DNA of 42,736 bases from a virus. The notes under the pieces are model-generated. The model did not search any database and was not told the DNA's origin. It saw only the letters and a program-made list of their open reading frames with translations. Of the stretch, positions 8,465 to 41,391 are shown piece by piece (position 1 is the stretch's first letter; each line of letters starts with the position of its first letter). Both the position numbers and the translations under genes were made by a program. Where the stretch lies: positions 1 through 42,736 of the IMG/VR virus record IMGVR_UViG_3300043424_000325; one strand, 5' to 3'.

Positions 8465-9139
8465 CTAACGGAAAAGATTCATATCGGCCAATGCACGATA
8501 TGCGTCGTGGTACTGTGGGTCGAGGCCTGCAGGAACGTCGGCCGATTTCGTGGTTGCGCTTTGACCAAGCACGTTGTTACCAGCCTCTGATGGGCGGTAC
8601 GGCTTACCAGCGACAGCCTCGAGTGCCTCAAGACGCTTGCTGACTTCCTTGATGGTCTTGACCATCTCCTCGAGTGCGGCAACCTGTGCTTCGGCGTGAG
8701 CGATGGCACTATCGTCCTTCTCGCGCTTCCCCATGTAGCCCTTGAGCTCTTCGCTCATTTCTTTCATGGTGCCACTAATCATCTCGGCGACGGCCTTCGC
8801 AATGGCTTTGATTTCGGCTTCGGACAAGAGTGATTCCTCGTCGCCGCCTTCCTCTTCGTCCATCTCCTCAGTCTCTTCGACCACGGTCTCCTCGGCCATC
8901 TCCTCGCCCTCGGCTTTTTCCTGCTTTAGGGTTTCGTCGGTTGGCATGGTGTTCCCCTTCATATCCCATGACCCAAGGATCGCCGCAATCTCATCAGCGG
9001 TCGGGACGTCCAACCCCTTATAGCTCACGCCTTGCATCTGGGCTTCCTTTTCGCGCGTCTGCATGGTCGAGATAAGTCGTTCAGCAACCGACTCTCCTAC
9101 CAAGTCCGACAACGCCTTCTTCTTCTCGGCAGTTAGCAT
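8465..9139 (-). CDS. Scaffold-like protein
   Basis: I start at ATG 9137-9139, preceded by GGAGGAGATTCC, rather than the in-frame ATG 33 nt upstream. The 224-residue product is strongly acidic in the middle (runs of E and D around residues 85-110), then helical and coiled-coil-like (residues 115-185, with AEAQVAALEEMVKTIKEV). No Cys is seen. These are common properties of phage scaffolding proteins, and the gene lies between the protease and major capsid genes. It should line the procapsid and be removed by the upstream protease. A promoter-like element lies just upstream. Confidence 0.75.
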   Translation of the reverse strand: MLTAEKKKALSDLVGESVAERLISTMQTREKEAQMQGVSYKGLDVPTADEIAAILGSWDMKGNTMPTDETLKQEKAEGEEMAEETVVEETEEMDEEEGGDEESLLSEAEIKAIAKAVAEMISGTMKEMSEELKGYMGKREKDDSAIAHAEAQVAALEEMVKTIKEVSKRLEALEAVAGKPYRPSEAGNNVLGQSATTKSADVPAGLDPQYHDAYRALADMNLFR

Positions 9140-16971: not shown

Positions 16972-17451
16972 TCAATCGTCAGCTTGCTGATAGCCATCCC
17001 ATATCTGCTGAGCATTAATCGTTTGATTTGCACCTAATCTCCGTAGCTCGTATAGCACGGCACTGTCGTCATCTATTACGATGGGATAATGCCCGGGATA
17101 GCGCTCTAACGCACGCAGGTACATGTCAATTTTAACCAGCACATTGGGACGGGTATCCTCATCAGAGCGCATAAGAAGCTCATCATAGTGTATGCCGCTT
17201 TTCCAAAGCCACCTTTGAGGTGAGCCATTACGAGCCAACCAGCGTTCGGTTACCACTCGATTTGATTCTCTTCGTCCGGTGAAAATTACGGTTCGGCTGC
17301 ATAACTTTTGCTGACGTTGAAATTCGGTAATAACTTCTATTCGGGGACTGGCCTTGGCAAACAACATGTGCCACTCATGGTCGGTGGTTGGGCGACGAAA
17401 ATTATTGTGTCGAAAACATAACGTTCCATCGATGTCGCAAAACAAAATCAT
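16972..17451 (-). CDS. HAD-superfamily phosphatase (PseT/PNK 3'-phosphatase-like)
   Basis: The 159-residue enzyme has all four HAD motifs: FCDIDGTLCF (nucleophile Asp and acid Asp, residues about 4-12), VIFTGRRESN (motif II), VLVKIDMYLRAL (motif III Lys), and YPIVIDDDSAVLYELRRLG (motif IV). The arrangement resembles the phosphatase half of T4 polynucleotide kinase, without a kinase domain. It could trim nucleic-acid 3' ends or act on a nucleotide. ATG 17449-17451 overlaps the methyltransferase stop by 4 nt. No partner ligase is seen. Confidence 0.78.
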   Translation of the reverse strand: MILFCDIDGTLCFRHNNFRRPTTDHEWHMLFAKASPRIEVITEFQRQQKLCSRTVIFTGRRESNRVVTERWLARNGSPQRWLWKSGIHYDELLMRSDEDTRPNVLVKIDMYLRALERYPGHYPIVIDDDSAVLYELRRLGANQTINAQQIWDGYQQADD

Positions 17452-18635
17452 AACAACTCCATCGGGTTCTGATTCAGATAGTGCTGAATGCGACGTTCGG
17501 CAATGTCGACGTACTCGGCGGTGATGTCAATACCGACAAAGCGCATGCCCTCGAGTATGGCAGCGCACCCGGTTGAGCCACTGCCCATGAACGGATCGAG
17601 CACGACGCCACCCTTTGGGGTAACGAGGCGGACGAGGTGGCGCATAAGGGTGATGGGTTTGACGGTGGGGTGGTGGTTGGCACGTTCGCCAGCTGGTGCA
17701 TCCAACCCTGCCTCGCGCTCAGCCCTCGACGCTTTGGCGATGTAGAAGAATCGCGAGGCGCCGCCGGAGTCGTCGTGGCCGTGTGCTGTATGTGCGTAAT
17801 TTTTACCCTTGCTGAACGACTTAAACTCGCCGTTATGCCGTGGCGTTGCCTTGCTCACACTGTGCCCACTCTGCTCATCCAGCGCTTCGGCGGCGTGTTC
17901 GTCGAGGATGACGTTGGCGGGCCAGCGGCCGAGGGGTGATGATTCTTGCGGTATACGCTTTTTGTTAGACCACATGCCAGAATCTGCAACGCCATCACGA
18001 CTCCACGCCTCACCCGTCGCCACCCTGCTCCCATCAATGTTGAGCGCACCGACTCCCCACGTCAAGACATTGTCGGCGACGGTGCCGGTCAGTGGCTTAC
18101 GGGCGAGCACTGCCGGTTCGTGGGCGGGCTTGATGGCAGTGCCCCAGCCGTGCCACTGCTGTGCCTCGGGCGTGGCGGGAGCGGTGATGGGTGGGTTGTA
18201 ATCTCCTTTGATGATTTGAGATTTTCCACCACCATGGCGTGTTGCCTTGCCCACCACTTCCCGCTCTGTACCCGCCTGCTTATCAATCGCCTTGCTGACA
18301 TCAAGCGACTTCGGGAATCCCGTAGCATAAAGCCACAGTATTGAATCCCGAATCTCAAAGCCGGCATCCTCAATCGCCACGGTCATGCGGTGATACGTCC
18401 GTGTGCCACCAAATGCAATCAAGTGCCCACCTGGCTTGAGCACTCGCAGACACTCCGCCCACAGCGTCGTATCGTACGCAATCCCCGATGCATCCCAGCG
18501 CTTGCCCATGAAGCCAAGTTCGTACGGTGGGTCGCACACGACGCTGTCAACGCTGTTGTCGGCCATCGTTTTCAGCACGGTGCGATTGTCGCCGTGGTGG
18601 AGTTGGTAGCGGTTCATTTTGTTTTCACTTTTCAT
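17448..18635 (-). CDS. DNA methyltransferase (N4-cytosine / N6-adenine family)
   Basis: I choose ATG 18633-18635, nine nt after GGAG; a second start six codons on is possible. CDPPYELGF (catalytic DPPY, about residue 35) precedes the C-terminal VLDPFMGSGSTGCAAI SAM-binding motif and FVGIDITAEYVDIAERRI, so the order is the beta-class one. The target-recognition region of about 200 residues between them contains NHHPTVKPITLMRHL near its end. No restriction endonuclease gene accompanies it. It may protect phage DNA from host restriction. DPPY is compatible with either 6mA or 4mC. Confidence 0.87.
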   Translation of the reverse strand: MKSENKMNRYQLHHGDNRTVLKTMADNSVDSVVCDPPYELGFMGKRWDASGIAYDTTLWAECLRVLKPGGHLIAFGGTRTYHRMTVAIEDAGFEIRDSILWLYATGFPKSLDVSKAIDKQAGTEREVVGKATRHGGGKSQIIKGDYNPPITAPATPEAQQWHGWGTAIKPAHEPAVLARKPLTGTVADNVLTWGVGALNIDGSRVATGEAWSRDGVADSGMWSNKKRIPQESSPLGRWPANVILDEHAAEALDEQSGHSVSKATPRHNGEFKSFSKGKNYAHTAHGHDDSGGASRFFYIAKASRAEREAGLDAPAGERANHHPTVKPITLMRHLVRLVTPKGGVVLDPFMGSGSTGCAAILEGMRFVGIDITAEYVDIAERRIQHYLNQNPMELL

Positions 18636-18657
18636 CGTCAACGCTCCAATATCGTCA

Positions 18658-19689
18658 TCAATTTGAGTACACATCTTGCGGTCGCCGTCCTGTCTGCTGT
18701 CGTCGTGCTCGATCGCCCATGAGCTCCTGATACGTGACGGCCTCTCGCTTGATACGATGCGCTATATCGAGTAACCCATTGGCCATGCACCAATCAACTA
18801 CCTCACTCCGTAAATACGCATAGCGAGTGTGGCATCGAGGGAATCCCTTGCGTTGTCGATAGTGCCCAATCATCCCTCTCGTGATGTACTGCTCTATCTC
18901 GGTGCCCTGAATGTAGACGCTCTCCCACGCCTCGCGGATGTCCTGCAGCCAATCGCACTTGATGCTCTTGGGGATTGTCTCACCGTAGGTGTAGTAGTGC
19001 CGATACACATCGGGCAGGTAGTAGTACGATTCATGGGCGAGGTCGCGCCGAATCCCTACGAGCATTGGCTTGGGTGTTGCGCCACGCTTGCGCTGATGAT
19101 GAAAGCTGGTTTGCCCAATCCACGGATCAATGGATTGCATCTCGCCTTGCGTTATCCAGCGTGGGCGCACGGCATCGTAAAGCTTGCCCATGCGGTGATT
19201 CATGGGCGCACGGTCGAATCGTAGGATGTGGCCACGCTCAAGCCACGCAAGCACGGCATCCATATCAAACGCCCGCCACATACCTCGTAGGCCGTAGCGC
19301 ATCGGTAGACTAGGGAGTGGGTCGTCACTTCGCTGCATCATGGATTGGATCATACGGAGAGAGCACCCAAGCTCTTCGGCAAGCTCATCAATCGTGGTGT
19401 GCATGTCACGCACGTCGATAGTGATACCAAGCCTATTAGCCATGCATCGCACGGTGTTGGGTGTTTTGCGGAGCTTTTTTGCGATTCTGGCGAAGCTGAT
19501 AGTATGGGCGTACTTTTTGAGGTACTCAACCTCATGGCGCTTCCATGTCCGCCATACGGTGAGGCCATATGCATCACGGTATTTGCGCACACTCGCACTA
19601 CTCACGCCAAGGATACGTGCAGCGACCTTAGTGTTATTGCCGTCGAGTGCCCGTTCTAATGCGTCCTTGTCGATGTCCAGCTTGGGCAT
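18658..19689 (-). CDS. Multi-HTH DNA-binding protein, paralogue A
   Basis: The 343-residue protein has several DNA-binding-like modules in series: an HTH (KVAARILGVSSASVRKYRDAYGL, about 25-47); a Myb/SANT-like helix set (EYLKKYAHTISFARIAKKLR, then VRCMANRLG, about 55-92); and a MerR/excisionase-like HTH (TIDELAEELGCSLRMIQSMM, about 100-125). Next come LAWLERGHILRFDR, further winged-helix-like segments with YYYLPDVYRHYYTYG, and another C-terminal HTH-like unit. The same order and phrases recur in the gene at 25845-26879. No nuclease motif is visible. A regulator of phage transcription or a DNA-organising protein is possible. ATG 19689 is chosen for ribosome-site spacing; 19698 is an alternative. 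Confidence 0.65.
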   Translation of the reverse strand: MPKLDIDKDALERALDGNNTKVAARILGVSSASVRKYRDAYGLTVWRTWKRHEVEYLKKYAHTISFARIAKKLRKTPNTVRCMANRLGITIDVRDMHTTIDELAEELGCSLRMIQSMMQRSDDPLPSLPMRYGLRGMWRAFDMDAVLAWLERGHILRFDRAPMNHRMGKLYDAVRPRWITQGEMQSIDPWIGQTSFHHQRKRGATPKPMLVGIRRDLAHESYYYLPDVYRHYYTYGETIPKSIKCDWLQDIREAWESVYIQGTEIEQYITRGMIGHYRQRKGFPRCHTRYAYLRSEVVDWCMANGLLDIAHRIKREAVTYQELMGDRARRQQTGRRPQDVYSN

Positions 19690-20635
19690 GATCGTCATCA
19701 CCCCTTTCTGTGCGCCGCTTCCATGTCAGGTAGTCGGCCGCTTCTCGAATATCTCTGATAAACGTGTGACCCTTGCGTGGGTCGATGACGAGGGCACCCG
19801 CTCCTGAGTGCTGACTCGGTGGCAACCCGAGTTGCCGTGCATAGGTATCATACCGCTTATACGTCCCCGTGAGTAGTGCGAGTCTATCACGCTCTCGCAC
19901 AGTGAACTGTCTTGCGAGTGTAGCGATGTGGGTATGACCGCCGACGTACACATCGGCGTCAATGTCCCGTGCTGCGCGTTCCATGCCGTGTGTGGGATTC
20001 AGGATGGATTGCCCACGCCACTTATGACGCACGCACACACGGAGCTGATGTTCGCCTGATGAAACGGTGAAAAGAATCTGTTGTGGGTCGTAGAAGATGG
20101 CCGGGTCGACAAGGTTTTGCAGGAAGTCGATACCCCCAAGGGTATATGTCCAGTTGTCGTGATTGCCTGCCACCACGATGATGAGCTTGTCGCCGAGGAT
20201 AGACAGCCACCGCCGTAGAAGTGCCCATTCATCATCAAAGTCTACCGCCTGACCACGCTGGAGGCCTGCCATTTTGGGGATGATCCAGTTGTCGATACCG
20301 TCGCCATGGAATATCGCATACATCCCCGGGGTGTCACGTATCACCTCTGCATCAAGGCGCGCTTGTCGGTAGTCGGTGTGCGGGCTGCCAAAGTGCAAAT
20401 CACTAAGAAACGCGAGACCATACGGTTCATCAGGGAGTTCGACCTCGTGATGTGGTGTGATGATAGACTTGCCCTCGAGGCGACTCCATACATCATCGAT
20501 GCGCTGAATTCCTTGGGCAACATGCTCGGCATATGCGATGGCCTCATCCTCGGTATTGAAGCTTATCCAGCGCCGAATCCCTGCATCATCGTACGCCTTG
20601 ATGCGCCAACGGTTGCCGTGACGGTAGATTTTCAT
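19634..20635 (-). CDS. Calcineurin-like metallophosphoesterase with N-terminal AP2-like domain
   Basis: The start is ATG 20633-20635 after AAGGGGAAATC; the upstream extension is shadow of the dCTP deaminase gene. Residues 1-40 (KIYRHGNRWRIKAYDDAG...FNTEDEAIAYAEHV) look like the AP2/arm-type DNA-binding fold. Residues about 75-300 carry the metallophosphoesterase motifs in order: AFLSDLHFGS, IFHGDGIDNW, VVAGNHDNW, and VYVGGHTHIA. These would bind two metals and hydrolyse a phosphodiester or nucleotide. The DNA-binding-like head suggests a nucleic-acid substrate. Its end overlaps the next gene by 56 nt. Confidence 0.82.
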   Translation of the reverse strand: MKIYRHGNRWRIKAYDDAGIRRWISFNTEDEAIAYAEHVAQGIQRIDDVWSRLEGKSIITPHHEVELPDEPYGLAFLSDLHFGSPHTDYRQARLDAEVIRDTPGMYAIFHGDGIDNWIIPKMAGLQRGQAVDFDDEWALLRRWLSILGDKLIIVVAGNHDNWTYTLGGIDFLQNLVDPAIFYDPQQILFTVSSGEHQLRVCVRHKWRGQSILNPTHGMERAARDIDADVYVGGHTHIATLARQFTVRERDRLALLTGTYKRYDTYARQLGLPPSQHSGAGALVIDPRKGHTFIRDIREAADYLTWKRRTERGDDDHAQAGHRQGRIRTGTRRQ

Positions 20636-20645
20636 GATTTCCCCT

Positions 20646-21224
20646 TTAGAGTTTGGGGAGGGTGATACCTGTCTGTCCTTGGTATTTGCCCGCGCGGTCG
20701 GCGTATGACGTGACAGGATCATCCCCCACGTAAAATAGACACTGTGCGATGCCCTCATTGGCATAGAGCGTGATTGGGCATGGCGTGGAGTTATACAGCT
20801 CGATGGTGACGTGACCCTCCCACCCGGGCTCGAGTGGCGTGACGTTGACGAACAGGCCACAACGTGCATAGGTCGATTTGCCGATGACATGCACGATGCA
20901 GTCGCGCGGAATGCGGAAGTACTCCACACTACGGCAGAGCAGGAACCCGTGCGGCTGGATATGAATCGATGGCGACGTTTGTGTCACCATCATGCCGTTC
21001 AGTCCGCCACGCTTGACATCAATCACTGGCCGAGTGATGCCACGTGAGAAGTGTGGCAGGTACATCCACTCATCCGCCACACGCATATCGTAGCCGAAGC
21101 TAGACACACCGTAGCTCACGACGCGCTTGCCATCAGGCGTCATGCGCACTTGCGACGATTCGAACGGCTCAATCATGCCGTGCTTGGTGGCTTGCTCAAT
21201 AATCCATTCGTCATTCTGAATCAT
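20646..21224 (-). CDS. dcd: dCTP deaminase
   Basis: The 192-residue enzyme shows SYGVSSFGYDMRV near the N terminus, VIGKSTYARCGLFVNVTPLEPGWEGHVTIEL (the RSSxAR-like and catalytic Glu region, here GKSTYAR), and NEGIAQCLFY near the C terminus with GKYQGQTGITLPKL at the end. It converts dCTP to dUTP, feeding dTMP synthesis, and pairs logically with the phage ThyX. It overlaps the methyltransferase stop by ATGA. Length is usual for the family. Confidence 0.9.
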   Translation of the reverse strand: MIQNDEWIIEQATKHGMIEPFESSQVRMTPDGKRVVSYGVSSFGYDMRVADEWMYLPHFSRGITRPVIDVKRGGLNGMMVTQTSPSIHIQPHGFLLCRSVEYFRIPRDCIVHVIGKSTYARCGLFVNVTPLEPGWEGHVTIELYNSTPCPITLYANEGIAQCLFYVGDDPVTSYADRAGKYQGQTGITLPKL

Positions 21225-25156: not shown

Positions 25157-25861
25157 TCACTTTTCATTAGCCTCTTTGAGTGCATCCCACGATACTCCGT
25201 AGTATTGTGAGCAAATGTGGTCAAGCACTGCTGCATACTGACGGATCTCTCGCTGTGCATCCGGTTTATTACGGAGGCGCACAAAATGGTACAAAGCCTG
25301 CTCTGTGGCAGTCCACATGAACCGAGTGTACAGACTCATAGGCAGAATCATGCGTGCCTGCTCTTTGGCTATACCTGCCGCAATCATTCGCTGATACATA
25401 GTCGTCAGTGATTCCATGGCACCAATGGCCCAGCCGCGATAATACTCAGAGTCGTCACTCACGGTGTCCGTTGATCCCTGTTTGCTGCTCTTGGATTGCA
25501 TGTAGAACGCAGGTGGGATGTAGAACTTGTCGTACTCCACATACCTGCCGCTTATCTCGTTCCATCCGGTATCCACAAACGAGTATGGACCACCGACCAC
25601 ATGCTTGTACCACTGGCGCGCAACGAACTCAGGGCACTGCACGATGATACTGATAGGCGAGTGACGAAATGGCGACGTGTGCTCCTCACGCGCCAAAAAG
25701 GCAATTAGTTTTTGTGACGGCTTCTCAGAATCCTCATTCCCATAGCTCACTCGTGCCGCCTGTGCCACCTTGTCCGATGGATCACGCAGCATAGCGTCAT
25801 GGAAGATGATGAATCCGTACTGGCCGTCAACGTCGAATTTGTCGTCAAGATTTAGTGGCAT
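25157..25861 (-). CDS. thyX: Flavin-dependent thymidylate synthase
   Basis: I start at ATG 25859-25861 after AAAGGAAAAACC. The 234-residue enzyme has HTSPFRH (about 61-67), QWYKHVVGG and WNEISGRY (about 83-107), then the C-terminal helix set (EQARMILPMSLYTRFMWTATEQALYHFVRLR, about 175-205) that includes the substrate-binding Arg. It makes dTMP from dUMP using FAD and folate. The textbook RHRxxxxxxxS signature appears as KHVVGGPYS, an altered form. It works with the phage dCTP deaminase. Confidence 0.9.
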   Translation of the reverse strand: MPLNLDDKFDVDGQYGFIIFHDAMLRDPSDKVAQAARVSYGNEDSEKPSQKLIAFLAREEHTSPFRHSPISIIVQCPEFVARQWYKHVVGGPYSFVDTGWNEISGRYVEYDKFYIPPAFYMQSKSSKQGSTDTVSDDSEYYRGWAIGAMESLTTMYQRMIAAGIAKEQARMILPMSLYTRFMWTATEQALYHFVRLRNKPDAQREIRQYAAVLDHICSQYYGVSWDALKEANEK

Positions 25862-26879
25862 GGTTTTTCCTTTCATAGTCTGCCATCATCTCCCGCCATG
25901 ATATCGGCACCTCTCGAAACGCGCGTGCGAGATCGTGCTTGCCGTGCGCCTGGAGTGCTGCACATATATCAGCGCGCTTTGCGTAAAACTTGTTCGTCGT
26001 AGTGAGGTGTGGCACGACTCTCCTGCTAAAGAATCCAGCGCCAACATGCGCAATCACATCAGACTTTAGCATGAACTCCGTGTCCCATGCCGCCTTGATG
26101 GCGAGGAACCGAGGCGACGACCATGGCACGATGCGATTGCCATACCGATATGCATACTCGAAAACCTCATCCTTCAGGTAGATGTGCTGGTTAATCGGTT
26201 TGATGGTGATGAGCTGAAGGTTGCCATAATTGTCTCGCATGTCCCGAAGCGCTTCCCCGATTGGCTGACACTCACGATACACATCGGCACTGCTGATAGT
26301 CCTCGCATCCCACTCATCATACATGCGCCACAGCTCACGCGCAATTTTAGTGCGATCGAAGGCGAGGATATGGCCAGCCTTGAGCCATTCACGGAACTCG
26401 AATTCGTCTATCTGGACATACCGACCTTTACGGATGATTGGAATCGGGAATGCTGAATCGGTGTAGCGACGTACCAAATTCACCACGTTGATGCCAAGCA
26501 TGAGTGCCACTTCATCCCGTCGCAGGAGATGACGCTCGGGCTCATAGGTTGCGCCGATACGATGCGCACGGTGGAATATGCTCGCCTCACTCCGCTTGAG
26601 CTTGCGTGCGATGGCCTTGGGTGACTTGGAGTGGTAGTGCTTGATGATGTACTCATCCTCCTCGATGCGCCATTGACGCCGACGGTAGGCGCGACGCTTG
26701 GCCGATGCGGATGGAGCGACATTGCTATCAATCGCTGGTGGAGTCAGCCCAAGGCGCTTGATGTGGCGGTAGAGCGTTGTTTTGCCGATACCGATTTCAT
26801 CCGCAATTTGCGGGAGTGGCTTTTTGTGCCACTTGGATGTGACGATGTCGAGGAACTCGTCACGCCATACGATTCTCAT
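25845..26879 (-). CDS. Multi-HTH DNA-binding protein, paralogue B
   Basis: The 344-residue protein has an N-terminal resolvase-like HTH (LPQIADEIGIGKTTLYRHIKRLGL, about 22-45), a basic linker, then a Myb/SANT-like set (EEDEYIIKHYHSKSPKAIAR, then FHRAHRIG, about 72-110). An excisionase-like HTH follows (RRDEVALMLGINVVNLVRRY, about 119-138), then REWLKAGHILAFDR, IYLKDEVFEYAYRYG and a C-terminal HTH-like unit. It shares order and phrases (WLxxGHILxFDR, LYD/MYDE, YLxDV/YRYG) with the product of 18658-19689. No catalytic motif is visible. It is coupled to the next gene (ATGA, 26876-26879). A phage regulator is the simplest guess. Confidence 0.65.
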   Translation of the reverse strand: MRIVWRDEFLDIVTSKWHKKPLPQIADEIGIGKTTLYRHIKRLGLTPPAIDSNVAPSASAKRRAYRRRQWRIEEDEYIIKHYHSKSPKAIARKLKRSEASIFHRAHRIGATYEPERHLLRRDEVALMLGINVVNLVRRYTDSAFPIPIIRKGRYVQIDEFEFREWLKAGHILAFDRTKIARELWRMYDEWDARTISSADVYRECQPIGEALRDMRDNYGNLQLITIKPINQHIYLKDEVFEYAYRYGNRIVPWSSPRFLAIKAAWDTEFMLKSDVIAHVGAGFFSRRVVPHLTTTNKFYAKRADICAALQAHGKHDLARAFREVPISWREMMADYERKNHATKS

Positions 26880-34180: not shown

Positions 34181-34210
34181 CACACAAGTATTACATCATT
34201 TGCAATTATG

Positions 34211-34371: not shown

Positions 34372-34868
34372 CGTGGAACGAATCAGCAATGCAATCGCAC
34401 CTGTTTAGCTGGATTGATGGCATGGCACTTGAGTACCCGTTCATGCGCCTCGCATTTCATCCAGCAAACGGAGGTCATCGGCATATCAGTACTGCCGAGC
34501 GACTCAAGCGTGAGGGTGTACGGCCGGGCGTGCCTGATGTGATGATCCCTGTGGCTATCTGTGATAGCGATGGTGATGGTCATCTTTATCACGGCATGGC
34601 ACTCGAGCTCAAGGTTGGCAATAACAAGCTCACTCACACACAAGCGTGGTATATGAACGAGCTTGTAAATCGTGGGTGGAAATGTGTGGTCGTGCGAGAC
34701 TTCTACGAGGTTGCAGCGTGGCATATCGCACGAGCATATGACATGCCTTATGCGCTTGCTGATTATGCGGCCGTGAATCAGAGTAAGTGGTCTGGCGTGA
34801 TGAATAATTGGACGAAAGCACAGTGGGACGAAGCCACTAAGGGAGGATATGATGTCCGCAACGGATAA
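34359..34868 (+). CDS. VRR-NUC nuclease
   Basis: I start at ATG 34359-34361 (MARVAWNESAMQSHLFSWID) after GGGGG. The 169-residue protein has EGVRPGVPDVMIPV and MALELKVGNNKLTHTQAWYM, giving the GxPD...ExK...Q set of the VRR-NUC branch of PD-(D/E)xK nucleases, then CVVVRDFYEVAAW. In phages such enzymes resolve branched DNA or work beside recombinases. It opens the replication operon. Confidence 0.82.
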   Translation: MARVAWNESAMQSHLFSWIDGMALEYPFMRLAFHPANGGHRHISTAERLKREGVRPGVPDVMIPVAICDSDGDGHLYHGMALELKVGNNKLTHTQAWYMNELVNRGWKCVVVRDFYEVAAWHIARAYDMPYALADYAAVNQSKWSGVMNNWTKAQWDEATKGGYDVRNG

Positions 34869-35055
34869 TACAACTATCGTCGGTGTACGCATCGACAAGG
34901 GATTACTAAAGCGCGTGGAGGACGCCACGCGAGACATGGGGAAAATCATCCCGACATTCAGCCGTACACAGATGATTCACCTCTTGCTCATCAAGGGCCT
35001 CGAGGCGCACGAGCAAGAATCACGACAAGACCAATCAGAATCAAAGCGAGGGTAG
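34852..35055 (+). CDS. Ribbon-helix-helix-like DNA-binding protein
   Basis: I use the second of two adjacent ATGs, five nt after GGGAGG. The 67-residue product has TIVGVRIDKGLLKRVEDATR, a strand-helix, then PTFSRTQMIHLLLIKGLEAH, a turn-helix, as in Arc/CopG regulators. It overlaps the nuclease gene by 17 nt. It may autoregulate the divergent promoters. Confidence 0.65.
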   Translation: MSATDNTTIVGVRIDKGLLKRVEDATRDMGKIIPTFSRTQMIHLLLIKGLEAHEQESRQDQSESKRG

Positions 35056-35056
35056 T

Positions 35057-35944
35057 ATGTCATGGCACGCCGTTCCAAATGTCATAGTGGATGAGCTCAT
35101 GGCCAAGGTATCACCAGCTGCATACAAGGTGCATGCAGTCATCGTGCGCCAAACCATTGGGTGGCATCGCACCGAGGACACCATCTCGATTAGTCAGTTT
35201 ATCCAGATGACTGGCCTATCAAAGAACTCGGTGATCCGCGCACTGCGTGAGCTGGTAGAGTGCGACGCCGTCATTCGCCGTGAGCAGACTGTGAATGGCG
35301 TGTCAGTCTACACTTATCGCATCACGCATGGTAGTGCAGAAATTGAACAGGGTAGTTCAAATTTGGGTAGTGCAAAATCTGAACAGGGTAGTTCAGAAAT
35401 TGAACCACCTAGTGCCAAAATTGAACCGGTAGGTAGTTCAAATTTTGAACAGGGGGTAGTGCCAAATTTGAACACACAAAAGAAAGATATAAACAAAAGA
35501 GAAACAAAGAAGATTACAACACGCCACGATGTGGCGGTTGAACCACCAAGTGACGTGCCACAGAAAAAGCAATCATCAAAAGCCGACACTCGAGATGATC
35601 GCCTTGACAGCTGGCAAATCATGACCTATCGTGAACTGGCCAGACTCACCCCACCCCACGCCATCCGTGATAGGATGATTGCTGAGGTCACCGAGCAACA
35701 GCGATGGTGGCAGGTTGTCCAAGAGTGGATTGGCAAAGGTTGGAGTCCACGGAATATCGCAGGGATGTTAGACTACTATCGGAATAATGGCCGCACACAT
35801 GAGCGAAGAGAGGGACGCCATGACGAACCACGACGAGACATTGCAGAAGAGCAACGCGCAATGGAAGAGTATTTCGAGCGCAACAAGAAATGGCTCGACC
35901 CCGAGTACCGAGAGGCTTGGATCAACGGAACCAATACTTACTGA
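35057..35944 (+). CDS. Replication initiator, lambda O-type
   Basis: The 295-residue product has an N-terminal winged helix (about 1-90) with VSPAAYKVHAVIVRQTIGWH, DTISISQFIQMTGLSKNSVI and VYTYRITHG, the pattern of phage replication protein O. Residues about 92-140 are a repetitive S/E/G linker encoded by the iteron DNA. The C-terminal half has PPHAIRDRMIAEVTEQQRWW and GKGWSPRNIAGMLDYY, a DnaD/O-like helicase-loader contact region. It should bind the origin inside its own gene and pass the host helicase in through the downstream loader. Confidence 0.85.
   Translation: MSWHAVPNVIVDELMAKVSPAAYKVHAVIVRQTIGWHRTEDTISISQFIQMTGLSKNSVIRALRELVECDAVIRREQTVNGVSVYTYRITHGSAEIEQGSSNLGSAKSEQGSSEIEPPSAKIEPVGSSNFEQGVVPNLNTQKKDINKRETKKITTRHDVAVEPPSDVPQKKQSSKADTRDDRLDSWQIMTYRELARLTPPHAIRDRMIAEVTEQQRWWQVVQEWIGKGWSPRNIAGMLDYYRNNGRTHERREGRHDEPRRDIAEEQRAMEEYFERNKKWLDPEYREAWINGTNTY
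35330..35475 (+). repeat. Replication origin: seven iterons inside the initiator gene
   Basis: Seven copies of GGTAGTkCAnAAwTTGAAC start at 35330, 35351 (short, 15 bp), 35366, 35387, 35408 (CCTAGT variant), 35432 and 35455, mostly 21 bp apart. Several have an internal dyad (TTCAAATTTTGAA in copy six). They encode the low-complexity linker of the protein. This mirrors the lambda origin, where O-binding iterons lie within O. Confidence 0.85.
35476..35520 (+). other. A-rich tract next to iterons (possible unwinding element)
   Basis: Right after the last iteron, about 45 bp contain roughly two thirds A on the plus strand (AAAAGAAAGATATAAACAAA and following). In lambda an A-rich region flanks the iterons on one side and melts when O binds. 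The same role is inferred here. Confidence 0.7.
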
Positions 35945-36752
35945 CCTCGACAAAATCGGCGTAACGCATCCAAACATGACGAACCGCGAACGCCTCGAGG
36001 CTTCATCGGTATACTGGCGTGAGCGCTACAAGCTTATCCGCGCTGGCAAGGCGCCCAAGGGAGTCATCCCCCAGCCTGTCGGTAACTGTTCGATTTGCGC
36101 CGACGCTGGATGGTACATGCGTGGCAAGGAGCTCACCAAGTGCGAGTGCGGCTACGCTGGTCCAAGTCCTGCCCAAAAGCGCCTGAATCGTGAGCTGGAT
36201 GTCCTCTCGCATAAAACCTTTGAGACTTTCAATCTCGAGCGCCCCTATAAGGACGTCGAGGGACGCACAGGAGGCTTTCAGCGCAACATGGTGGGTGTCA
36301 CCTACCATAAGGCGAAAGCATGGGCGCAGAAGCCCGTACAGTGGCTTTACATCTACGGTGATCCCGGGTGTGGCAAGTCGCACCTCGCTGCGGCGATTGC
36401 CAACCACTTGGGCGCGAGTGGGTGGGAGGTCATCTACCGAAGCGTTCCCGCCATGATTGACTATATGCGAGACGCCATGAAGTCGGGGTCACTTGAGTCG
36501 GTGTATGACATGATTGAACGTGCGGACTGTGTCGTATTCGATGACATCGGCGCCGAATCACAGACCGATTGGGCGCAGGCTGTCCTCTTCCGACTGCTGG
36601 ATAGTCGTATCGACAAGCCGACGGTCATCACATCGAACATCGATAGCCACCAGCATCGGTATCACGGACGCATCGTAGATCGGTTAAGCGCAAGCACACG
36701 TGCATGGATAGCCGCCACGAGCTACCGTGAGCTGAAGCGCCTCGAGGACTAA
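35820..36752 (+). CDS. DnaC-like helicase loader ATPase
   Basis: ATG 35820-35822 follows GAGAGGGACGCC and lies inside the initiator gene (125-nt overlap). A later ATG at 35976 lacks a ribosome site. The 310-residue protein has a possible zinc knot (CSICADAGWY...CECG, Cys at about 90, 93, 108, 110), Walker A GDPGCGKS (about 180-187), Walker B CVVFDDIGAE (about 237-246) and a sensor segment TVITSNI. It should load the host replicative helicase onto the origin. No phage helicase is present. Confidence 0.87.
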   Translation: MTNHDETLQKSNAQWKSISSATRNGSTPSTERLGSTEPILTDLDKIGVTHPNMTNRERLEASSVYWRERYKLIRAGKAPKGVIPQPVGNCSICADAGWYMRGKELTKCECGYAGPSPAQKRLNRELDVLSHKTFETFNLERPYKDVEGRTGGFQRNMVGVTYHKAKAWAQKPVQWLYIYGDPGCGKSHLAAAIANHLGASGWEVIYRSVPAMIDYMRDAMKSGSLESVYDMIERADCVVFDDIGAESQTDWAQAVLFRLLDSRIDKPTVITSNIDSHQHRYHGRIVDRLSASTRAWIAATSYRELKRLED

Positions 36753-38677: not shown

Positions 38678-41391
38678 TGCTTGTTCACTCCATCGAAGAG
38701 GCTCTGGAATGTCTGACGCCAGTAGACATCGATTTGCGTATTCGATGTCAGTGTAGCCATAATCATGGCCATAGACACGACGCCCGGCCGAATCGTAAAG
38801 TCGGCAAATACGCCTGCGAGATTGAGGACGCGAATCAGATTGCCAAATGTCGCCGATGTAATCGTGCCGTACTTTGGCCTGATTGTCACGAGATCGTATG
38901 CGACAAAATCGGTGTCGATTGGGGTTGAAAAGGCGGCCGTTCTATCGGTGAATATCATGAGTTTGTCATCTCGCACGTTGACGACTGCATGTACCTGCAC
39001 GGGGCTTGATACATCGCCAAATACCATGCGAATCGTTGGATATGACTGGACTGTTGACGAGTTAGTAGAGTGGATAACTTCACTGAATAGGTCGCTAAGA
39101 GCATTGATACTTCCTACCATCAGCGTGCCGTCAGATAGCGTAGCGCCACAGTATCGAGGTGTCCCTAGTGCTCCTGCAATTGGGATCCACGACGATCCGC
39201 CAAGTGCAGTCCCATTCCAGTAGGACATGCTTGCCATGATTGTCTCGGTAGAGGTGATTGCAACCGGTATCCAGCTTGGTGCGCCAACAAAAATCCCACC
39301 CTTATATCCAAAAATGGAATTTTTTCCCGGGAATGCGACTGGAAGTGCAAACGCATTTGTGAATCCGGGAAATGGCATTAGTCCGGTGGCAGATGTGTAG
39401 TATCCGAGATACTGAATAGTACTAGAAAATTCCCCTCCAAATACCAGTGTTCCATCTGCGTCAACGTATACATCAAATACGGTGTTATTGAGGGTGCTCG
39501 GTGACGGATCAAGGCCGGTAATAGCCGCGGTTTGCCGATTGATTTGCGCCAGTCGACCAGTAGACACGCCGGGGAATGTGGTAGTAAATGACCCGCCAAC
39601 GTAGAGTATGTCTGATGTAGAAGTATAGGTGATGCAAAATGCAGTGCCATTAAATCCGACGCTAAATGCCACCCATGCTCCTGTACTTGACCGCCATCGT
39701 GCGATGCGATTTGCCGTAATGGCCCCGGGAGCAGTCGTGAATGCGCCTACTGCATATACCTGCTGCTCACTGCCAGCGGTGACGATTTCAATGTCATGCA
39801 CGATCCCATTGAAGTTTCCTGTGGATGTATATGCAGACCCATTATGTGTAGTGAGATAATTCCCTATCGCTCCAGTGAACTCACCACCTATCCATGCAGT
39901 ACCAAAAATGTCAAATTCAATAATGTTTACTGCCGCATTGAGTGTTGCTCCAGGTACTGCGGAAAAGGCATTCGTGCTTGGATTGTAAATGCAGATGTAT
40001 GGCAGTGATTGACCCGTGAGGCTTTGTGTAAACGTTCCACCAATCCACACTCGCCCATCAGGTGCTTGAGCGATTGTACGAACTGCACCATTGAGTCCAG
40101 TAGCAACATTTTCAAGCATTAGCGTTTTTGCATCGGTGTCAAACTGTGACACCCGAGACACAGACCCAGACGAAACGTAATTTCCGCCCATACGAAGCGC
40201 CTCGTCATGCCCATAGAAGTACGGATCGTGCATCTGTACTGAGATGTCGATATTGACCGTAAGTGCATCGGTCACGAGCACATTGAGTCCACCCGAGAAT
40301 GCGCCACGGAACGTCATCGGCACGCCAATTGATTCCCGTCCATTGAGATGCTGAAAGATGAATGTGCGATCCTGCCGATTCACATAGAGGTCACGACTCA
40401 ACAGCGCTTGCAGTCGCTGCACCTTACGAGCTAGCTCTGTGTTAGTTGCCCCTGCAAGCTGACCGATGAATGTGACTGTGCGCACAGGATTGATGATGTC
40501 CTGCAGTGCACCGCCATCCTGTGAGCCAAACCCAATAGCCTGCACCTGTGGCTGATTGATACTTGCCTCGGCAACGCCGATAATCTCCAGTCCGAACTCG
40601 TCCTGCAAATTGTAGATGCGCCCGCCCGATGCTGTCGTGGCATAGCGTACCGAGCGTGAGCGGTGTGGTGCGCCCTGCCATGCGTACTCATATACTCCTG
40701 TCGAGTCATCAATCGTGCCCTCGGTGTCACCATCGAAGTAGGTGGTAGCGTGCATGCTTGATACCGTAAGACCGATGTCCGTGTCAGGTGATGCGACCTG
40801 CTCAAACTGCACAGCATCGATGTATGCACTTCCGCCTGCCCACGATCCAGCGACTGACGATTTCTCAATCACGAACGTGGCCGTAGAGCTGGTGACACTT
40901 GAGAGGAACACAAGTTCGACCCGTTGCCATTGCCCCTCGATGAGCGTAAACGTTTTTTGGGCAACAACTGTTGCACCATTGAGCACACGCGTGGTGTAGG
41001 TGCGCCTATTCGAGCCCGATGCGCCATAGATGTAGAAGCTCAGTGCAAAGTGGCGTGATTGCGTGAGCGTGATGGCGCTATAGGTGAGTGAGATGAAGTC
41101 GCCAGATGCGCTTGGGCTAGCCGCATAAAATGCATTTGCACCTGACCAGACGGGATTGCCTGCTCTGATGTACAATCCGATATCTGCATCAGTATATGTG
41201 ATACCGCCAAGTCGATATGCTACAGTCCATCCGACAAATGGCCCTGAATATACTGGATCGTACAGCTCAAAACTTGGATTCATCACCTGATTGATAGCCT
41301 CGGATGGCATTACAATCGAGAGCGCACCCGAGCACGGATTGTAATAGCCTGCTCCCGAGGCATCTGGTACTTGATTGATTTGACGGATCAT
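38674..41391 (-). CDS. Dit-like distal tail protein with carbohydrate-binding and beta-propeller domains, 905 residues
   Basis: Residues about 30-200 resemble a carbohydrate-binding beta-sandwich (INQVMNPSFELYDPVYSG, RHFALSFYIYG, YIDAVQFEQV). Residues about 240-400 look Dit-like (LARKVQRLQALLSRDLYVNR, FIFQHLNGRESIGVPMTFRG, VQMHDPYFYGH). The rest (about 400-870) is a propeller or Kelch-like repeat set with recurring VGGxFT/IGGEFT units (WIGGTFT, WIGGEFT, VGAFTT, VGGSFT, FGGEFS). Dit proteins are usually 200-300 residues, so the extra domains likely make host contacts. Start ATG 41389-41391 after GAGAGGGAGTGT. Confidence 0.72.
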   Translation of the reverse strand: MIRQINQVPDASGAGYYNPCSGALSIVMPSEAINQVMNPSFELYDPVYSGPFVGWTVAYRLGGITYTDADIGLYIRAGNPVWSGANAFYAASPSASGDFISLTYSAITLTQSRHFALSFYIYGASGSNRRTYTTRVLNGATVVAQKTFTLIEGQWQRVELVFLSSVTSSTATFVIEKSSVAGSWAGGSAYIDAVQFEQVASPDTDIGLTVSSMHATTYFDGDTEGTIDDSTGVYEYAWQGAPHRSRSVRYATTASGGRIYNLQDEFGLEIIGVAEASINQPQVQAIGFGSQDGGALQDIINPVRTVTFIGQLAGATNTELARKVQRLQALLSRDLYVNRQDRTFIFQHLNGRESIGVPMTFRGAFSGGLNVLVTDALTVNIDISVQMHDPYFYGHDEALRMGGNYVSSGSVSRVSQFDTDAKTLMLENVATGLNGAVRTIAQAPDGRVWIGGTFTQSLTGQSLPYICIYNPSTNAFSAVPGATLNAAVNIIEFDIFGTAWIGGEFTGAIGNYLTTHNGSAYTSTGNFNGIVHDIEIVTAGSEQQVYAVGAFTTAPGAITANRIARWRSSTGAWVAFSVGFNGTAFCITYTSTSDILYVGGSFTTTFPGVSTGRLAQINRQTAAITGLDPSPSTLNNTVFDVYVDADGTLVFGGEFSSTIQYLGYYTSATGLMPFPGFTNAFALPVAFPGKNSIFGYKGGIFVGAPSWIPVAITSTETIMASMSYWNGTALGGSSWIPIAGALGTPRYCGATLSDGTLMVGSINALSDLFSEVIHSTNSSTVQSYPTIRMVFGDVSSPVQVHAVVNVRDDKLMIFTDRTAAFSTPIDTDFVAYDLVTIRPKYGTITSATFGNLIRVLNLAGVFADFTIRPGVVSMAMIMATLTSNTQIDVYWRQTFQSLFDGVNKQ

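Follow-up and report, generated by a model that had tools for sequence, protein, structure and literature searches.

A gene for an O-type replication initiator in the environmental phage genome IMGVR_UViG_3300043424_000325 (positions 1 to 42,736, the whole stretch of 42,736 nucleotides being referred to here as the window) carries in its interior a series of dyad repeats and an A-rich tract. The question that this locus raises is whether these elements are a replication origin within the initiator gene, as in phage lambda, or whether they control the gene or serve the protein that it encodes. Judged by its sequence, the iteron array with the A-rich tract is very probably the replication origin of the phage, of the lambda O type. 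The features concerned are as follows.

34849..35055, + strand: small probable regulator gene just upstream of O (phrog_4738 transcriptional repressor, E=1.6e-5)
35057..35944, + strand: O-type replication initiator gene, 295 amino acids (Phage_rep_O PF04492 and phrog_678)
35078..35323, + strand: winged-helix DNA-binding domain, residues 8-89 (AlphaFold2 prediction, PDB matches)
35330..35348, + strand: iteron 1, sequence GGTAGTGCAGAAATTGAAC
35351..35365, + strand: iteron 2, truncated to 15 bp, right dyad half absent (from the sequence and the array finder)
35366..35384, + strand: iteron 3
35387..35405, + strand: iteron 4
35408..35426, + strand: iteron 5
35432..35450, + strand: iteron 6, near-perfect dyad GTTCAAATTTTGAAC
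35455..35473, + strand: terminal iteron 7, spaced 23 bp from iteron 6, in a changed reading frame
35474..35515, + strand: A-rich putative DNA-unwinding element, opening with ACACAAAAGA next to iteron 7, the arrangement found in lambda
35513..35514, no strand: sharp boundary, relative to contig L004, between a conserved DNA-binding-domain/origin module and a diverged C-terminal part
35787..36752, + strand: DnaC-like AAA+ helicase-loader gene (phrog_50; the start is the first ATG of the open reading frame, and the true start may be further in)

The initiator, the loader and the plan shared with lambda

The O gene matches the Phage_rep_O family (PF04492) with E=2.4e-10 and 41.2 bits, above the curated cut-off of 28.7, and phrog_678 (replication initiation O-like) with E=6.5e-22. 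The AlphaFold2 model of its N-terminus has pLDDT values of about 84-95 over residues 11-90, with structural elements in the order H-H-E-H-H-E-E, and the best PDB matches of this domain, with weak E-values, are winged-helix proteins, mostly transcription regulators; a search of the PDB by sequence with either the window O protein or lambda O gave no meaningful match. Residues 93-199 are predicted with low confidence to be disordered, and the C-terminal part is predicted with moderate confidence to be helical. The loader gene matches phrog_50 (DnaC-like helicase loader, E=5.9e-41) as well as the IstB_IS21 and Bac_DnaA ATPase domains; the profile libraries used do not identify it as a homologue of lambda P but as DnaC-like instead. 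The initiator/loader module lies in a cluster of + strand genes, and the downstream tail genes are on the - strand. Scans of the window for promoters and terminators gave only chance-level results, Rfam gave no match, and the region from 34 to 37 kb has no DNA similarity to annotated phages.

Lambda ori consists of four 18-bp iterons (annotated at 39034, 39054, 39078 and 39101, with spacings of 20, 24 and 23) and a 38-40 bp AT-rich tract inside gene O. Common to lambda and the window are a PF04492 initiator, dyad iterons within its gene, a loader gene downstream, an A-rich tract right after the last iteron, a last spacing of 23 bp, and ACACAAAAGA in the same register: in both, ACACAAAAGA begins right where the terminal 18-mer ends, and beyond it comes A-rich sequence with another CAAAAGA, which in the window is 17 nt from the first. 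Of the 42 nt of the A-rich tract of the window, 28 are A and 4 are T (A+T 32/42). The tract begins immediately after the last iteron; an earlier note on this DNA had observed an A-rich tract adjacent to the repeats. The two origins differ in that the iterons are unrelated (window GGTAGTGCAAAATTTGAAC, lambda ATCCCTCAAAACGAGGGA), that the window has six full copies and one truncated copy whereas lambda has four, that the loader is DnaC-like rather than P, and that the two O proteins have only 19% identity over their alignment. The proposal of the earlier note that a lambda-type origin with a different repeat sequence lies in an O-like gene thus agrees with the Phage_rep_O match, the predicted winged helix ahead of the array, the dyads within the gene, the A-rich tract, the loader gene, and the register of 23 bp and ACACAAAAGA. 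The window origin appears to be ordinary in kind; its assignment to the known, lambda type of system is well supported. Origins of the Stx phages P27 and 933W resemble that of the window in having more than four iterons (six each, and more than four lengthen the O linker; PMC7466680), but their iterons are nearly identical to those of lambda, and those of the window are not. The closest annotated relatives of the window DNA-binding domain are the O genes of Acinetobacter, Pasteurella and Shewanella phages (L005-L011), which have the same plan and a terminal spacing of 23 bp, with ACACAA or ACACAC after the last iteron, but have other iteron sequences and are about 26-45% identical in the part that matches.

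In lambda, O dimers on the iterons bend the DNA, the adjacent A+T-rich region of about 40 bp opens on supercoiled DNA, and O and P contact the opened strand before DnaB is loaded (PMC5043065). By analogy, the N-terminal winged helix of the window O-like protein would bind the dyad iterons midway in its own gene, probably as dimers; the O-bound array would wrap and strain the DNA; the adjoining A-rich tract would melt, in a register fixed by the last pair of iterons 23 bp apart; and the C-terminal domain of O, with the DnaC-like loader in the role of P, would load DnaB, the helicase of the host, onto the strand thus exposed. Activation by transcription of the + strand would likewise be expected from lambda.

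An alternative is that the array is an operator through which the O-like protein represses its own gene, replication starting elsewhere. The similarity of the predicted winged helix to transcription regulators and the small probable repressor gene directly upstream are compatible with autoregulation, but seven sites in the middle of the gene, an A-rich tract in lambda-like register and a helicase-loader gene downstream speak against an operator in place of an origin, as does the plan, which is the same as that of lambda ori, for which origin function is established (PMC5043065). Repression could also coexist with origin function, and autoregulation in place of an origin is improbable.

The iteron array

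The array (35330-35473) within the initiator gene comprises six full iterons of 19 bp and one truncated copy of 15 bp, which start at 35330, 35351, 35366, 35387, 35408, 35432 and 35455, with spacings of 21, 15, 21, 21, 24 and 23. The consensus forms a dyad, GTTC...GAAC, which is clearest in copy 6, where both arms are complementary around a single central base; the dyads of the other copies are imperfect, and copy 5 starts with CC instead of GG. The seven dyad repeats of about 21 bp are where the earlier note had placed them, and the second copy (35351-35365) is cut to 15 bp, as stated there; the right half of its dyad is missing. Tandem Repeats Finder ranks the array far ahead of any other repeat of the window (score 79-83, compared to at most 39 elsewhere). 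A tile score for array strength, built on 18-mer copies, is 42 for the array and at most 25 for window tiles away from it; the second-best repeat tiles, with that score of 25, are at 8681-9030. No further iteron-like sites were found elsewhere in the window when up to three mismatches were allowed.

The array encodes residues 92-139 of the O protein and the A-rich tract encodes residues 140-153 approximately, both within the linker predicted to be disordered. Another explanation of the repeats is that they serve the protein, as a low-complexity S/E/G linker grown by slippage without any function as DNA; the predicted disorder of residues 93-199 speaks for it, as does the fact that five of the six iteron spacings are multiples of three. 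However, 300 synonymous recodings of the array peptide, drawn from the codon usage of the phage itself, have a mean tile score of 18.7 and a maximum of 26, compared to 42 for the real array, so that the peptide repeat does not explain the DNA repeat; 300 codon shuffles of the array reach at most 21. The earlier note had assigned all of the repeats to an S/E/G linker, which is correct for copies 1-6, but copy 7 retains the DNA sequence in a changed frame and is read as VVPNLN instead of GSSNFEQ. The array score above that of every recoding, together with the frame change of copy 7, indicates selection on the DNA and not on the peptide.

A comparison with the nearest relative, contig L004 (IMGVR_UViG_3300046779_002061, 41466 bases), which carries the same array, also bears on a purely protein-serving role. 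All four differences between the two contigs in the 144-nt array are in the truncated copy or in spacers and none is in the six full iterons; the amino-acid changes in this stretch likewise spare the full iterons and affect one spacer and the truncated copy. The A-rich tract has no differences over 35474-35513. A linker without DNA function is accordingly very improbable. Least probable of all is an iteron-plasmid-like origin of the Rep/iteron theta type rather than the lambda kind, since although iterons about two helical turns apart beside an A+T-rich tract are known there too (PMC5043065), such an origin has direct-repeat iterons bound by monomers of a Rep-family initiator, and in the window the initiator belongs to Phage_rep_O and the sites are dyad-symmetric and inside the initiator gene.

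With the lambda-type origin retained as the preferred reading, the comparison with L004 further reveals a division within the O gene. Residues 1-152 (the DNA-binding domain, the array and the A-rich tract) are 99% identical between the two proteins and the remainder, from residue 153 to the end, is 44% identical, and the blastn block stops at window position 35513 (L004 position 5457). Thus, the origin and the DNA-binding domain move or persist as a unit, apart from the C-terminal/loader half. This sharp switch, which coincides with the end of the tract, suggests recombination between an origin module and a C-terminal/loader module.

Terminal spacing and the CAAAAGA motif in O-type genes

The survey drew 377 loci out of phage records, viral contigs and genomes, of which 372 have a recognizable O-type gene; at 70% protein identity these are represented by a set of 96. 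Arrays within the gene, each stronger than 20 codon shuffles, are present in 79 of the 96, and the other 17 Phage_rep_O genes have no detectable array, so that family membership alone is no proof of an origin. The sample is uneven and the loci are related by descent, and the numbers that follow are therefore contrasts rather than clean probabilities. The array finder misfires on some relatives (e.g. L257, L291, L295) by locking onto CAAAAGA repeats; these arrays were retained when spacings and motifs were counted, and their effect there is mostly noise.

A spacing of 23-24 bp separates the terminal pair of iterons in 56 of 79 arrays but only 36 of 197 internal pairs. The longer spacing of copies six and seven in the window (24 and 23 bp), which the earlier note had pointed out, is real, but slippage, offered there as its origin, is ruled out as the main cause by the conservation of the terminal spacing across the family: 23-24 bp is the usual last spacing, and that of the window is thus a conserved design and not just a trace of slippage. 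The motif CAAAAGA starts no more than 12 nt from the terminal iteron in 41 of 79 arrays. At internal iterons the count is 12 of 276, and shuffled tails give 1.1 on average. The last iteron often continues directly into (AC)ACAAAAGA. The 41 terminal motifs are spread over all three reading frames (28/7/6), and CAAAAGA is present in 49 tails, compared to a mean of 20.1 tails and a maximum of 31 after synonymous redrawing by the codon usage of each locus with the proteins kept; the use of all three frames and the excess over synonymous redraws indicate that the motif is kept at the DNA level, with the protein explaining part of it. Recurrences of CAAAAGA in the tails are mostly 13-15 bp apart. 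The usual terminal spacing, the run of the last iteron into (AC)ACAAAAGA and this tendency of the motif to recur are features of lambda as well. Even in the 11 loci whose GC content exceeds 55%, the 42-nt tail is on average 34% GC and 59% A. Downstream of the terminal iteron, the A-rich tracts of L099, L101, L227, L291, L295 and other relatives contain CAAAAGANACTATTA-like units in tandem, spaced 13-15 bp apart and in differing frames.

The iteron sequences differ widely among arrays and co-vary with the DNA-binding domain of the initiator. In a Mantel test of iteron similarity against DNA-binding-domain similarity, applied to the 69 arrays that remained after consensus sequences resembling the CAAAAGA motif were dropped, rho is 0.418, and the best of 2000 permutations is 0.196; such a correlation is expected if O binds the iterons.

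From a complete environmental phage genome, the window contributes a clear origin of the lambda type whose iteron sequence is unrelated, and with the 78 other arrays it separates what is fixed (the last two iterons 23-24 bp apart and ACACAAAAGA opening the unwinding tract) from what is free (iteron sequence, iteron number and upstream spacing). According to PMC7466680 (citing Dodson 1986; Wickner and McKenney 1987), the minimum for unwinding in lambda is the two A/T-proximal iterons plus the AT-rich region, and replication in vitro needs no iterons but the two beside that region. What is conserved in the surveyed origins coincides with this minimum. The fixed spacing and ACACAAAAGA provide a simple rule for locating origins in phage genomes, and ACACAAAAGA is a testable sequence for the poorly defined step of melting and helicase loading. 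It is proposed, tentatively and as somewhat less than an even prospect, that ACACAAAAGA, fixed relative to the terminal iteron and recurring as CAAAAGA about every 13-15 bp, is a conserved element common to the O-type origins of lambda, of environmental phages and of prophages in several bacterial phyla. The element might be recognized in single-stranded form by O or by the loader, or might position the helicase, while the pair of iteron and DNA-binding domain would diverge freely. If this is true, the shared ACACAAAAGA/CAAAAGA element is a phage counterpart of the DnaA-trio, and origin specificity is divided into two separate layers. ACACAAAAGA could be either a recognized sequence or the favoured spelling of an easily melted, helically phased tract. 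What appears to be new is the comparison over 96 O-type genes, and within it the putatively conserved motif of the unwinding element is of most interest. The open-access literature that was searched, which does not include an older comparison of lambdoid origins by Moore et al. (1979; cited in PMC5043065), describes neither the terminal spacing common to these arrays nor the ACACAAAAGA motif, an absence that does not prove novelty.

Genome map, host and other genes

The ends of the contig (1-205 and 42532-42736) repeat each other directly over 205 nt, one mismatch aside, and the tape-measure reading frame runs on across their junction; the contig is therefore a complete circular map of about 42.53 kb. 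The GC-skew, a check proposed in the earlier note and one that bears on whether bidirectional theta replication would start here, has its detrended minimum near the module, at 34197 and thus some 1.2 kb from the array, with a range that is not significant (block permutation 0.17). The suggestion that the host group differs from that of lambda found no evidence: the nearest annotated O genes are gammaproteobacterial, whereas the loader is Firmicutes-like, resembling those of Streptococcus, Staphylococcus and Lactococcus phages. An exonuclease-like protein (19634-20929) has only weak matches, to Pseudomonas and Caldibacillus phages, and another large window protein that was searched for clues to the host has no match.

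Two different proteins encoded on the - strand (18658-19701 and 25845-26879) both match phrog_323 (D5-like regulator) in their N-terminal parts. Also on the - strand are genes for a DNA methyltransferase (17448-18674), the exonuclease-like protein (19634-20929) and a dCTP-deaminase-like protein (20646-21224), by which the phage may modify its own DNA or nucleotide pool.
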